22,573 bases of DNA from a virus, in IMG/VR virus record IMGVR_UViG_3300025305_000152, positions 1 through 22,573 of that record; one strand, 5' to 3'. Positions 3,503 to 7,627 of the stretch are shown here, piece after piece. How positions within the stretch are numbered: position 1 is the stretch's first letter; each line of letters starts with the position of its first letter. The translations under genes and the position numbers were made by a program. The notes beneath the pieces were generated by a model. That model ran no database searches, was not told where the DNA came from, and saw only the letters and a program-made list of their open reading frames with translations.

Positions 3503-3587
3503 CAAAACACAGGCGTCGGTGCTGCTGTTGCTGTTCCTCAAGCAGCTCTGGTGACAGGCGCACGATCGGTTCGGCAGAATCTTGCAT
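3378..3587 (-). CDS. Small soluble protein, last gene of the leftward block
   Basis: The product is 69 residues, starting MQDSAEPIVRLSPELLEE, with a charged helical middle containing HRRLCFARHCWRLRHQL and a C-terminus WAEVFARNEGLTLDEYARL. Start is ATG 3587 behind a strong GGAGGGAGGAAA site. It overlaps the end of the upstream gene by 50 bases and the convergent plus-strand gene by 125 bases. I do not recognise the family; the basic, Arg-rich helical character could suit nucleic-acid binding, but there is no motif that proves it. Confidence 0.68.
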   Translation of the reverse strand: MQDSAEPIVRLSPELLEEQQQQHRRLCFARHCWRLRHQLAPSGRTWAEVFARNEGLTLDEYARLKKKEK

Positions 3588-4212
3588 TTTCCTCCCTCCA
3601 ACCAAGCACCTTTTTACCGTCGAGTTTAGTTAACTCATCCCAACAATTCCTGTCCAGAACCTTGATGGTTCCTCCCGGTAGAATAAGAAACTTAAAGAAA
3701 TCATAGAGCTTGTGCATTGCCATACTCATTGGCAAGCTACTGTCCCTGTGATACTTATCCTCATCAGCGCAGACAGCAAACGGCCTGATGTGAGCTACCT
3801 GCACCACCATGGTGGGGTACCACTTCTCGTCTATGCAACACTGCACCATACCGTCCACTTCTTTGGACATCACAACCCACCTACGCAGGTGGTCGCTCCC
3901 TACCCTGCTACGACCTGAGCTGTAAACCGGGTCGCTAGACTTTATCCGGGGCGGAGTGTACACGCTCCAATCATTAGCCACAGCTCGTGGCGCTAGATCC
4001 TTCTTGTCTACAAACTCCCAGTGGTAGCCGCCACAGGTAGGCTCCTTGCCAGCTGCTGCCTGACCTATGTGAGATCCAACTAAGCTACCACCACTCTGTC
4101 CCGGTGGACGCGAGGCTTTGTCCGCTTTCATCCCTGCCCATATACCAGCTAGAGATAGCGAGGGGAACACCCTGTTAGTCTCTACACATCGAACTCTTTT
4201 ACTGCCTGCCAT
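3538..4212 (-). CDS. Protein with NUMOD-like N-terminal domain
   Basis: The product is 224 residues. Residues about 7-68 (VRCVETNRVFPSLSLAGIW ... GSHIGQAAAG ... GGYHWEFVD) match the pattern of NUMOD-type DNA-binding modules that accompany homing endonucleases: a C-x-E-T opening, F-x-S-x-x-x-A, a small helix-turn-helix and a terminal GGYHW. The rest holds several aromatic and cysteine residues (VQCCIDEKWYPTMV, HKLYDFFKFLILPGG), but I see no HNH or GIY-YIG motif, so nuclease activity is not supported. An AGAGGTGA ribosome site precedes the ATG. It follows the exonuclease gene directly and is probably co-transcribed with it. DNA binding is the most that can be inferred. Confidence 0.7.
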   Translation of the reverse strand: MAGSKRVRCVETNRVFPSLSLAGIWAGMKADKASRPPGQSGGSLVGSHIGQAAAGKEPTCGGYHWEFVDKKDLAPRAVANDWSVYTPPRIKSSDPVYSSGRSRVGSDHLRRWVVMSKEVDGMVQCCIDEKWYPTMVVQVAHIRPFAVCADEDKYHRDSSLPMSMAMHKLYDFFKFLILPGGTIKVLDRNCWDELTKLDGKKVLGWREENARFCRTDRAPVTRAA

Positions 4213-4215
4213 AAC

Positions 4216-5001
4216 TCACCTCTTGTTTTTTAGTTGACGCAATCTCCCATGGAGTTGTTGCGCACCCAGAAACGCCCGAAAGTCTGCATTAATATCTTCA
4301 GACTTACCGGCCTCGAACTCACCCGTTTTCTTATCGAACCTCAGAATCCAGGCAGACTCTATGGCATCACCATGCACCTGAGCCACAGCCTCTGCGTAGG
4401 CAGCCACCTGTAGGAAATACTCGTCCCATATACCGGTCGAGGTTTTGAAATCTATCACGCAGAACTCATCATTAACGTACGCCACGGCATCCACTGTGCC
4501 GGCGTAGTTATACTGTCTGTTGTAGATTCTTTCCTCTGACGATACCCACTCAATATTATTCTGAGCAATCCAATCACGAAAACCATCGATCGCTGAGACA
4601 GCTCGTTCATCTGTCGGCATGGTCGGCTCCTCGCCGTTGCCCAGCTTCCAGTTGATAGCTTCCTCGCACCACTGATGCACCCTAGTACCAACGTCCCTAG
4701 CCTCTTTCGATGTGGCTCGGAACGCACCGCGTATACCATTGTACATATCATCTAGCGTAACCCCATCAGCAAACACAGGATGTGCATCCCTGTCCTCCTG
4801 TTCGGGCACCATGGATGTGTTGTCCATGAACCAACGAGCCCCCTCCTTTGCCGCCCACGGCATCAGAGCAGGCTTGTTGATCACGCCTAAGATAGTGGTG
4901 ACGCTGGGGACATACTCACCACCAACTCGGTAAGTATGCCGCCCCTCGCTGAACTCAAGATCTACAGAGTCCCCATCAAAGTATTCAATCGAATACTTCA
5001 A
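4216..5001 (-). CDS. PD-(D/E)XK exonuclease (Cas4/RecB-like)
   Basis: The 261-residue protein has the ordered signature of the RecB/Cas4 nuclease family: VPSVTTIL (31-38), GTRVHQ with His109, EERIY with Glu157, YAGTVDAVA with Asp171, VIDFKTS with Asp184 and Lys186, and QVAAYAEA with Gln198 and Tyr202. Asp171, Asp184 and Lys186 are the expected metal and catalytic residues. Such phage enzymes process DNA ends and usually act with an annealing protein, which is present at 7638-8099. Start is TTG 5001, overlapping the stop of the SSB-like gene as TTGA. The stop lies three bases before the next gene's ATG. Confidence 0.9.
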   Translation of the reverse strand: MKYSIEYFDGDSVDLEFSEGRHTYRVGGEYVPSVTTILGVINKPALMPWAAKEGARWFMDNTSMVPEQEDRDAHPVFADGVTLDDMYNGIRGAFRATSKEARDVGTRVHQWCEEAINWKLGNGEEPTMPTDERAVSAIDGFRDWIAQNNIEWVSSEERIYNRQYNYAGTVDAVAYVNDEFCVIDFKTSTGIWDEYFLQVAAYAEAVAQVHGDAIESAWILRFDKKTGEFEAGKSEDINADFRAFLGAQQLHGRLRQLKNKR

Positions 5002-5252
5002 AACGGTACGTCATCAGACACGGTGTCCCTCGCGGGATAGTCCGATGCTCCTGCACTACCGCCATCATATGGAGCCTGCAACTGACCTTTCATATACGGC
5101 TTGCCAGCTTTTGACACGTTTTTCCATACGCCTACCTCGAACGCTACTCCTTTGTACATACCCTCGCCCTTGTAGTTGGGCTGGTTATCTCCCTCGGTCT
5201 TCTTACCGTTGGGAAACATTACGATTGTGTTGTCATCTAATTCCATAGCCAT
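4998..5252 (-). CDS. Putative single-stranded DNA-binding protein, SSB-like tail
   Basis: The product is 84 residues: a compact beta-rich core (TIVMFPNGKK ... YKGVAFEVGVWKNVSKAGKPYMKGQLQAPYD) followed by a flexible acidic tail ending SDDVPF. The terminal D-D-x-P-F is the hallmark of bacterial SSB C-terminal tips, which recruit partner proteins. The core resembles small DUF736-like OB-fold-size proteins more than classical SSB, so binding is inferred. GAGGAAAGTAAG precedes the ATG at 5252; a second ATG two codons later is also usable. It is coupled to the exonuclease gene, which fits a recombination or replication role. Confidence 0.65.
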   Translation of the reverse strand: MAMELDDNTIVMFPNGKKTEGDNQPNYKGEGMYKGVAFEVGVWKNVSKAGKPYMKGQLQAPYDGGSAGASDYPARDTVSDDVPF

Positions 5253-5291
5253 CTTACTTTCCTCATGTTGTTTAACTGCATTACCATTGTA

Positions 5292-5951
5292 TCATATATT
5301 GCATACATCACTCAAACATTGTTCCTCACTGAACCCACTTCTAATGTTTTCCCATACAAGTTCTGAAGAACTAGGGTAGGCGTATACACCATCATTCATA
5401 TAAACGCCACCACTATCATACCCCGGAAGATCACTGTACCAGTCAAGTTCCTCGCCACTATAGAATCTCTGATAATCATCATGCCACATCTTAGGCTCGA
5501 TACCTCTACCTTTTGTAAGGTAATAGTTCCATAATACCTCATCTGACTTCCTTATCTTCATCCACGATCTCATTTTTCTCATGGATGGTTTGTACCCTAT
5601 CTCTTCCTCAACGGGCTTACATTCATAGTCCCAAGGCCAGTGCATCTCTACCGGCCTTTCTTCATCAGACCATTCAGGCACGACTCTAGGCTTTTCCATT
5701 TCACCTATTTGCTTTATGGCTTCCATTCTATAAGCTATAAATTCGGCGCAGTTTATACTTTGCCACTCAGGTTGGGCTTCGTATGGAGCAACTAAACCTA
5801 TCGTACGACCACAATCGAACCACTTAAAACCATCCTCATCAATTGACTCTACACGCATAGTAGCATGATCGTATATACTTACTACTAAGCAATGAGATCG
5901 AACATAACCAGAATCAAGTGAATGAACTTTAATAAGATTAAAATTTTTCAT
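5292..5951 (-). CDS. Unknown protein with an RNR-like C-terminal Cys tail
   Basis: The product is 219 residues from ATG 5951, which overlaps the RNR stop as ATGA; an in-frame ATG at 5975 would add eight residues. The body is Trp/Tyr-rich and acidic (EWSDEERPVEMHWPWDYEC, WHDDYQRFYSGEELDWYSDL) and matches no family I know. The last residues are EEQCLSDVCNI, nearly the same as the RNR tail SESQCLSGVCGI. The DNA of the two tails agrees at 31 of 39 positions, including a 14-base exact match (5309-5322 and 5965-5978). The gene is visibly richer in A+T than its neighbours, suggesting recent acquisition. Confidence 0.72.
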   Translation of the reverse strand: MKNFNLIKVHSLDSGYVRSHCLVVSIYDHATMRVESIDEDGFKWFDCGRTIGLVAPYEAQPEWQSINCAEFIAYRMEAIKQIGEMEKPRVVPEWSDEERPVEMHWPWDYECKPVEEEIGYKPSMRKMRSWMKIRKSDEVLWNYYLTKGRGIEPKMWHDDYQRFYSGEELDWYSDLPGYDSGGVYMNDGVYAYPSSSELVWENIRSGFSEEQCLSDVCNI

Positions 5952-7627
5952 ATCCCACATACCCCACTCAAACATTGTGACTCACTGTTGTCCTCATATA
6001 CCACCCCACGCTTAGCGTGCGCCTCCTCGTAGGGCACAGGCGTCAACGGCTGGCCACCCCTAGCGCCTGACGGATAAAATGTCAGGCCACGCAACCCATG
6101 CGCGTACTTGTGTACCATCTTTGCAAACTCCTCTACTTTAGACTCATTGTTTAGCTCACTGCCCCACTCGGGTAAGTTAATCGTGCTGCTGATAGCGTGA
6201 TCAACGTACTTTTGCATGTCGAACTGCATCTTTATCCTGCGCTCAGGGTCCGCCGCTAGATCTACGGCTGACTCAATATCGTCTGGACTGATCCCGCCCT
6301 CGATGAGGGCTTGGGCTGTACCGTCAACGACAAACTGATGCTTCCATCTGGCGCCGTCCCCAAGATACCTTCTGCGGTATGCGACAGAGTAGACAGGCTC
6401 AATCCCACTTGTTGTCCCGGCAAGGATCGAAATCGTGCCTGTAGGGGCGATTGCTCTATATCCTTTTGGACGACTGAGAAAAAGTCTATCGCAGTGTACA
6501 TTAGCTGATCTTTCTGATTCATCCTTGTATACCTTGAGCCATTGCCTCAGCTCATCATTCATTTCATATTTGTGTCCACGCTGCAACAGCCATTCGTGGA
6601 CACCCATAAGCCCTAGACCGAGTCTACGGTTTTGCGCTCGTACTTCACGAACTTTGCCGTATGGTACCGTCGCCCGAATCGTAGTACAGACCAGCATCTT
6701 TGACGCAAGGCGGACGGCAGCCTTGAACTCATCAATCGTCTGTATGTTCGCCATGTTAACACTACCAAGACAGCATATGTCACTATCATCCTCGCTCGTA
6801 ATCTCAGTACAAGCGTTACGCAATGTTTCATTACTCTTTTCTCCAAAGTTAAAACTGAATCCTGGCTCCCCTGTACGCATGGCTTGCCGGCAGTTCTCCA
6901 CGAACAGATCCGGCATACCCTTGTGTTGCAGGAAAGCATCGTCATAGTTAATGGATATGTTCATCATATCCAGAGGGGCACGATAGTTAAAGTCAGCACG
7001 CTTAGCGTCAGCCACCGTAAACGGTGTGCCATCTTCGTTAAACGCACCAGCGATAGGCATATCGTGCCAGTTCTTGGCCCTTAGAAAGGACCACACATCC
7101 TCGTGCTGCCAGTTGAGGCTGCCATACTCTGCGGTGCGGCGCGTGCCACCCTGCATAACATGACGACCACAATCGTTCAGCATTTCTAACAGAGGCAGCG
7201 GACCAGACGAGATACCGCCAGTGCGGGACAACGTCCGGCCGGACGGGCGTATCGCAGATACGTCCATACCAATGCCACCCCCTGTCATAGTGCAGCTAAC
7301 AGCTCGCCACACTAGGTCTGCCCATTCCTCTCGCGTGTCATGCTCGGCACGCAGCAGGTAGCAGTTGTTCAGAAAAGCTGTGCTAGGATCTCGACCGGCA
7401 TAGTAGATCTGCCGGCCACCCGGCATGATCACGCAGCCAGAGATAGCTTGACGCAACCCGTCAAGATCCTCACGCGACAGCAAAGGAGTCTCGGTGCCGC
7501 CGCGGGTGCCACAGATGTAGTCAACAATGATCGAGGCGCGATCATCCCACGTTTCTAATGTGTTCTGAGCATACTTCCGCCTAAATATTGTCTCGCTAAA
7601 TGCTGTTTTTAAACCGCCGTGTTCCAT
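5948..7627 (-). CDS. nrdJ: Class II (adenosylcobalamin-type) ribonucleotide reductase
   Basis: The 559-residue enzyme reduces ribonucleotides to deoxyribonucleotides for phage DNA synthesis. Visible motifs: FLNNCY with Cys89 and CLGSVN with Cys286 (the expected substrate-reducing pair), NACTE 271-275 (Asn271, Cys273 thiyl-radical site, Glu275), APTGTISILAGTTSGIEPVY (394-413) and the redox tail CLSGVC with Cys552 and Cys557. There is no N-terminal ATP cone, no nrdB-like gene nearby and no glycyl-radical motif. The TGTIS-TSGIEP signature fits the B12-dependent class. Class is an inference from these motifs. AAGGAG is well spaced before the ATG. Confidence 0.9.
   Translation of the reverse strand: MEHGGLKTAFSETIFRRKYAQNTLETWDDRASIIVDYICGTRGGTETPLLSREDLDGLRQAISGCVIMPGGRQIYYAGRDPSTAFLNNCYLLRAEHDTREEWADLVWRAVSCTMTGGGIGMDVSAIRPSGRTLSRTGGISSGPLPLLEMLNDCGRHVMQGGTRRTAEYGSLNWQHEDVWSFLRAKNWHDMPIAGAFNEDGTPFTVADAKRADFNYRAPLDMMNISINYDDAFLQHKGMPDLFVENCRQAMRTGEPGFSFNFGEKSNETLRNACTEITSEDDSDICCLGSVNMANIQTIDEFKAAVRLASKMLVCTTIRATVPYGKVREVRAQNRRLGLGLMGVHEWLLQRGHKYEMNDELRQWLKVYKDESERSANVHCDRLFLSRPKGYRAIAPTGTISILAGTTSGIEPVYSVAYRRRYLGDGARWKHQFVVDGTAQALIEGGISPDDIESAVDLAADPERRIKMQFDMQKYVDHAISSTINLPEWGSELNNESKVEEFAKMVHKYAHGLRGLTFYPSGARGGQPLTPVPYEEAHAKRGVVYEDNSESQCLSGVCGI

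Follow-up and report, generated by a model that had tools for sequence, protein, structure and literature searches.

The window, i.e., the whole stretch of 22,573 nucleotides analyzed here (positions 1 to 22,573 of the viral IMG/VR record IMGVR_UViG_3300025305_000152), carries on its minus strand, in this order, an Erf/Rad52-like gene, a ribonucleotide reductase gene (RNR; 5948-7627), a gene that we term X (5292-5951), a single-strand DNA binding protein (SSB)-like gene (4998-5252) and an exonuclease gene (4216-5001). The features relevant to the argument are listed below; relatives are referred to by locus handles such as L083.

5948-7627, minus strand: class II (B12-dependent, NrdJ-like) ribonucleotide reductase, 559 aa (PF02867, RNR-II insertion domain and NrdJ_Z matches; CxxxxC tail from sequence)
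5948-5986, minus strand: tail copy 1, the Cys-tail codons of the RNR itself (SESQCLSGVCGI stop; from sequence)
5965-5978, minus strand: first copy of a 14-base core, ACAATGTTTGAGTG (sequence match)
5948-5951, minus strand: ATGA overlap of RNR stop and X start, the insertion point of the cassette slot (sequence, relatives)
5292-5951, minus strand: gene X, 219 aa, of an unnamed family, with a body (~residues 1-205) that is conserved and under purifying selection (homologues, dN/dS)
5292-5330, minus strand: tail copy 2, a second RNR tail that closes the X frame (SEEQCLSDVCNI stop; 31/39 bases)
5309-5322, minus strand: second copy of the 14-base core ACAATGTTTGAGTG (sequence match)
5253-5291, minus strand: spacer to the SSB gene, in which TATGATACAAT resembles the 3' end of the L083 DUF3310 gene (TATGGTACAAT; sequence likeness)
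4998-5252, minus strand: SSB-like gene, the first backbone gene past the slot (phrog_18154, E 3e-5)

A Pfam profile search of the window RNR recovered PF02867 (E 8e-50) and the class II insertion domain PF21995 (E 3e-6, 27.8 bits against a cut-off of 27), while the best NCBIfam match is NrdJ_Z, at an E-value of 3e-57 but below its curated cut-off. The combination of an RNR barrel with the class II insertion domain places the protein, by domain content, among the class II (NrdJ) enzymes. The C-terminal Cys pair of class II RNRs is likewise present: the protein ends ...YEDNSESQCLSGVCGI*, with NSESQCLSGVCGI as its tail and CLSGVC as the Cys-bearing motif, and CxxxxC occurs in the tails of all relatives compared. 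The nearest isolates by RNR are the Roseobacter phages CRP-3 and CRP-212 (51-52%), which have genes other than X behind their RNR. Elsewhere in the window, three small proteins encoded at 186-856 and 2289-2588 on the plus strand have a C-terminal CGGCGG or CGCG and look like iron-sulfur assembly proteins (HesB/IscA-like), and a stretch of ~57 bases is repeated near 82-138 and ~1990-2050.

The start codon of X overlaps the RNR stop (ATGA, 5948-5951); its frame is readable from 5975, and the ATGA overlap is the start of the entire X family. By eye, no slippery sequence accompanies this overlap, and a frameshift fusion of RNR to X was set aside. The first-pass annotation, made from the letters alone, had described an A+T-richer insert of no recognized family, which our analysis bears out on both counts: the GC content of X is 40.3% as against 52.3% for the RNR, and Pfam, PHROGs, NCBIfam and PADLOC yielded no convincing family match. 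Since neither PDB sequences nor folds (the latter searched with a partly confident model) added a match, we rejected the identification of X with any known nuclease, any defence gene or a member of another named family. More specifically, profile, PDB-sequence and fold searches revealed no recognizable nuclease domain (HNH, GIY-YIG, LAGLIDADG, PD-(D/E)XK) in X or its homologues; the HNH, GIY-YIG and LAGLIDADG motifs were not seen in X by eye either, and X, the sole gene between the two repeats, gave no match to a recombinase. AlphaFold, run twice, returned a pLDDT of 41 from a 10-sequence input and a mean of 57 from a 15-sequence input. The model is a mixed alpha/beta structure with a better-predicted region at residues ~21-145 (pLDDT ~50-87) and a tail predicted to be disordered (~25-32). 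No fold was matched from either run, and the absence of a thioredoxin/glutaredoxin match pertains to a model with a mean pLDDT of only 57. The dN/dS of ~0.18 in X marks it as a maintained gene, and as judged from its sequence it is a functional protein. Its role may be that of a small early-phase effector or of an unrecognized nuclease; the position of X does not decide between functions because, as detailed below, the slot that it occupies accepts many genes.

The protein ends ...WENIRSGFSEEQCLSDVCNI*, wherein FSEEQCLSDVCNI is a copy of the RNR tail. The previously counted match between the two ends, 31 of 39 bases with a longest run of 14, is exact. In comparison, matches in this register averaged 11.5 over 3000 dinucleotide shuffles of X and peaked at 20, and 400 shuffles scored in any register reached at best 25. 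The similarity between X and the RNR is limited to the last 39-40 bases and stops upstream of these. A simple assembly error is unlikely, as the RNR-X-SSB stretch is identical in two further IMG/VR contigs of the same phage. The copy preserves both the CxxxxC spacing and the distance to the C-terminus, and every residue of its CLSDVCNI is found in some real RNR tail (D in CTGDAC of the RNR-B lineage discussed below; N in CLSGVCNL of L010 and L018). With residues thus within the natural range of RNR tails, the copy could in principle be redox active. The D-variant tail is found elsewhere only in contigs of the same phage. Further, the copy reads SEEQ, as in nearly all relatives, whereas the window RNR reads SESQ, so that the copy retains an older or foreign state. 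It matches the L024 RNR tail at 32/39 bases and that of its own RNR at 31/39, values so similar that either tail may be its source, which counts against the explanation favored below. A crossover between the two 14-base cores would delete X and yield an open RNR frame that ends QCLSDVCNI, in line with the displaced tail proposed below.

Homologues of X were found only in marine viral contigs, at 16 loci behind the RNR with the ATGA overlap and additionally in L093; none were found in isolated phages, and a search of cellular genome contigs recovered no prophage or cellular homologues. At the 16 loci, X starts on the stop codon of RNRs from two different lineages. In L093, X lies ~3 kb upstream of the RNR start. 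The first-pass annotation had proposed that an X standing far from the RNR and still bearing the tail would speak against insertion; L093 supplies the distance but lacks the tail, and thereby argues away from a fixed link between X and the RNR. Indeed, the Cys pair is missing from every other member found (the 16 loci behind the RNR, plus L093), their C-termini being ..WENLRY, ..WENIRHDETYEI, ..IIQGEERA, ..GEIDEPWY, ..NDGVYGH, ..QPWDY, ..DDSEDY and ..EVDGW.

Several features of these homologues point to X being a horizontally moving cassette. Between the window and L007, DNA identity is ~65% at the RNR 3' end, 88-93% in X and ~40% or less past X, with a dS of 0.43 in X and saturation in the RNR; likewise, L061 and L050 differ by a dS of 0.05 in X as against 0.19 in the RNR. 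The GC content of X stays at 37-42% regardless of its neighbor, with the RNRs of the same genomes at 42-52%. Co-transfer of X with a long RNR stretch was discarded, as sliding identity found no RNR segment specially close to that of the X-bearing phages. The 3' end of X is generally variable: L080 has lost 54 bases in frame, and differences are also seen in L003 and L007. An otherwise unrelated protein of 170 aa (L109:3084-3602; L111:2643-3155) carries the C-terminal module of the L061 X, EPWYSDLPGY..GVYLxDGVYGH, which by its sequence is an exchange of gene ends between genes of the slot.

The slot itself emerges from 98 marine-phage loci, in which the first gene behind the class II RNR belongs to 14 unrelated families and overlaps the RNR stop by ATGA in 58. 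These families include DUF3310, X, an HNH-type gene, a phosphoesterase-like gene (by eye) and several without an assigned family. Genes of the T5orf172/MUG113 (GIY-YIG) type occupy it in L010 (4765-5373) and L018 (5638-6345), with homologues in L019 and L024. The site is empty, with the RNR TGA directly in DUF3310 (insert length 0), in L063, L066, L079, L071, L042 and L011; it is filled by X in L061 and L050 (614 bases) and L080 (560 bases), and by unrelated genes in L064 (428 bases) and L012/L013 (314 bases). In the closest pairs, the 150-base flanks are 91-99% identical on both sides, with the L080/L079 comparison reaching up to 96.7% on the left and 98.7% on the right. Empty phages read RNR..GGGATATGAAACCCTCACAC, and filled ones RNR..ATATGA-[X]-TTGAAACCCTCACAC or -[other gene]-ATGAAACCC. 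Near-isogenic phages that have or lack X thus place the clean insertion point, which the first-pass annotation had recommended seeking in relatives, at the ATGA shared by the RNR stop and the X start. Its proposal of a mobile gene at the RNR 3' end accordingly stands as regards a cassette at sites that may be empty, filled by X or filled by unrelated genes; it needs correcting as regards the point of entry, which is the stop overlap and not the interior of the RNR gene.

In the window, the SSB gene follows X directly, unlike in most relatives, and no DUF3310, HNH or 108-aa gene intervenes. The nearest backbone, L083, has the order RNR-gene-DUF3310-SSB. DUF3310 had no match in the window, and the likeness in the spacer noted above hints weakly that a DUF3310 gene was deleted ahead of the SSB gene. 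Two genes behind X, the gene at 3538-4212 (minus strand) is homing-endonuclease-like, with a weak HNH_2 match (E 0.03), and the first ~70 residues of its product match phage HNH endonuclease or NUMOD4 annotations (E 1e-3 to 9e-3). It is a candidate for driving gene exchange at this locus.

These exchanges also take in the terminal codons of the RNR. The L064 RNR differs from its relatives by 4-6% overall and by 27-30% in its last 30 bases, with eight to nine differing positions in the last ~24 bases, and its protein tail is still CLSGVCGI; this is most simply explained by a tail imported together with the cassette. A second case comes from RNR-B, a distantly related RNR (~23% identical) that ends CT[GA]DAC where X is absent and CTAGVC in the X-bearing L129-L134. 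The last 21 bases of the latter match an RNR-A tail at 18/21 positions as against 11-14/21 for the X-less RNR-B tails. Both cases, that of RNR-B being based on a few codons, indicate that cassettes are exchanged with the Cys-tail codons as their left joint. The loci L129-L134 (e.g., L130:78-1925 and 1922-2617) have the class II-like RNR-B at the same locus, followed by a distant X and DUF3310, which suggests that even the RNR gene was replaced in situ.

Hence, we propose as the probable explanation that X is a mobile cassette in the RNR slot and that its tail copy is a recombination scar, in which a displaced RNR tail became fused in frame to X. The slot begins at the ATGA, holds many unrelated genes and has at its border exchangeable last codons of the RNR. 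In this process, the conserved tail codons would serve as a short left-hand homology for recombination, and the conserved following gene, usually DUF3310, as the right-hand homology. In an ancestor of the window phage that was devoid of the right-hand homology, X would have been joined in an imprecise manner, immediately upstream of another RNR 3' end. This end, which most likely represents the original, displaced tail of the recipient, would have remained behind X and, being by chance in frame with it, would have come to supply its last 12 residues. We infer the right-hand joining step, as no relative presents the exact pre-insertion state with the RNR directly before this SSB gene. The intact frame and both intact cysteines of the copy weigh against a scar, which requires neither; however, being in frame by chance has a likelihood of 1 in 3, and the survival of both cysteines through ~7 changes is not improbable. 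As to the earlier suggestion that insertion had duplicated the tail, a copy is indeed present in this phage, but insertion does not regularly yield one: of the ~80 relatives with this RNR that were checked, not one carries a second tail.

A less likely origin of the copy is local duplication, whereby X was in place downstream of the RNR beforehand and acquired the RNR tail at its 3' end through a template switch, with no new insertion. Few tails match the copy as closely as that of the RNR of this phage, and the instability of X 3' ends seen in L080, L003, L007 and the L061 module of L109/L111 would suit such an event. However, the L024 tail is slightly closer, and the SEEQ of the copy against the SESQ of its own RNR means that the duplication would need to predate the SESQ change.

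We regard as rather improbable that X is a free-standing homing endonuclease of an unrecognized type, which cuts the RNR 3' end and generated the direct repeats through its own homing. Such genes do lie next to phage RNRs: mobile elements frequently target RNR genes (PMC3653736), and 33% of surveyed T5orf172 neighborhoods contain an RNR gene (PMC10448857). In T4, the start of mobE, a free-standing HNH homing endonuclease gene, overlaps the nrdA stop (UAAUGA), suggesting translational coupling (PMC2988022). X resembles mobE in lying at the 3' end of a phage RNR with its start on the RNR stop (ATGA in this case), at the border of an essential nucleotide-metabolism gene, as do the T5orf172 genes that take its very slot in L010 and L018; it is also A+T-rich and horizontally mobile. 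Presence/absence polymorphism at a conserved gene border, a trait of homing endonucleases, is seen in L079 versus L080 and L063 versus L061. However, X differs from mobE in having no HNH or other nuclease domain, in following a class II RNR and in ending here in a copy of the RNR tail. It also falls outside the T5orf172/GIY-YIG family. The negative family, PDB-sequence, fold and by-eye motif searches, together with the L093 X that is not at the RNR, speak against this reading. No nuclease domain having been found in X, the earlier label of "homing-type" is shown to apply only to other genes of the slot. Nor does X behave as a site-specific integrative element with attachment repeats, given that direct repeats flanking it are restricted to this phage instead of recurring in independent insertions and that it matches no recombinase.

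The least credible reading, also raised in the first-pass annotation, is that the X tail works in trans, re-reducing the RNR active-site disulfide or docking thioredoxin beside the RNR's own tail. In class II RNRs such as the Thermus virus NrdJm, the C-terminal tail takes reductant (PMC6459318), and it is this reductant-delivering Cys-pair segment that is copied in X, albeit on another protein and in a single phage lineage. The retained spacing and natural residues of the copy, the start of X on the RNR stop at 16 loci in two RNR lineages, the purifying selection on X and its disordered end, as expected of a mobile tail, are all compatible with such a role. Yet the Cys pair is absent in all X homologues outside this phage, an outcome that the first-pass annotation had itself named as speaking against a redox role, so that electron transfer in trans is not supported as the function of the X family and was rejected as such; moreover, L093 has X away from the RNR, the RNR retains a complete tail of its own, and adjacency to the RNR says little on X given that the slot admits many unrelated genes. 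A narrower version, wherein an accidental fusion was retained in this phage because it provides the RNR with an additional Cys tail from a separate gene, is just as doubtful; if true, the enzyme would receive a redox tail in trans from the gene that is translated directly after its own.

Returning to the scar as the favored explanation, insertion next to phage RNR genes, mostly of homing endonucleases, was known already. For instance, in the split nrdA of Aeromonas phage Aeh1, a mobile gene lies in the RNR coding region and function is undestroyed (PMC3653736). By contrast, the window RNR is whole, and only a fragment of its tail has been duplicated and is translated with the inserted gene. 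To such parallels the present case adds a tail that undergoes exchange and that, in one instance, remained fused to the incoming gene. The 98 loci, a large natural set, reveal that the RNR stop codon borders a hot slot in which unrelated genes replace one another, and that the Cys-tail codons, although catalytically needed, can be swapped together with these genes. This suggests that a short sequence under functional constraint may also act as a joint for recombination and indicates how a gene can acquire a piece of its neighbor's reading frame. It also counsels caution, in that a motif common to neighboring genes need not imply a common function.
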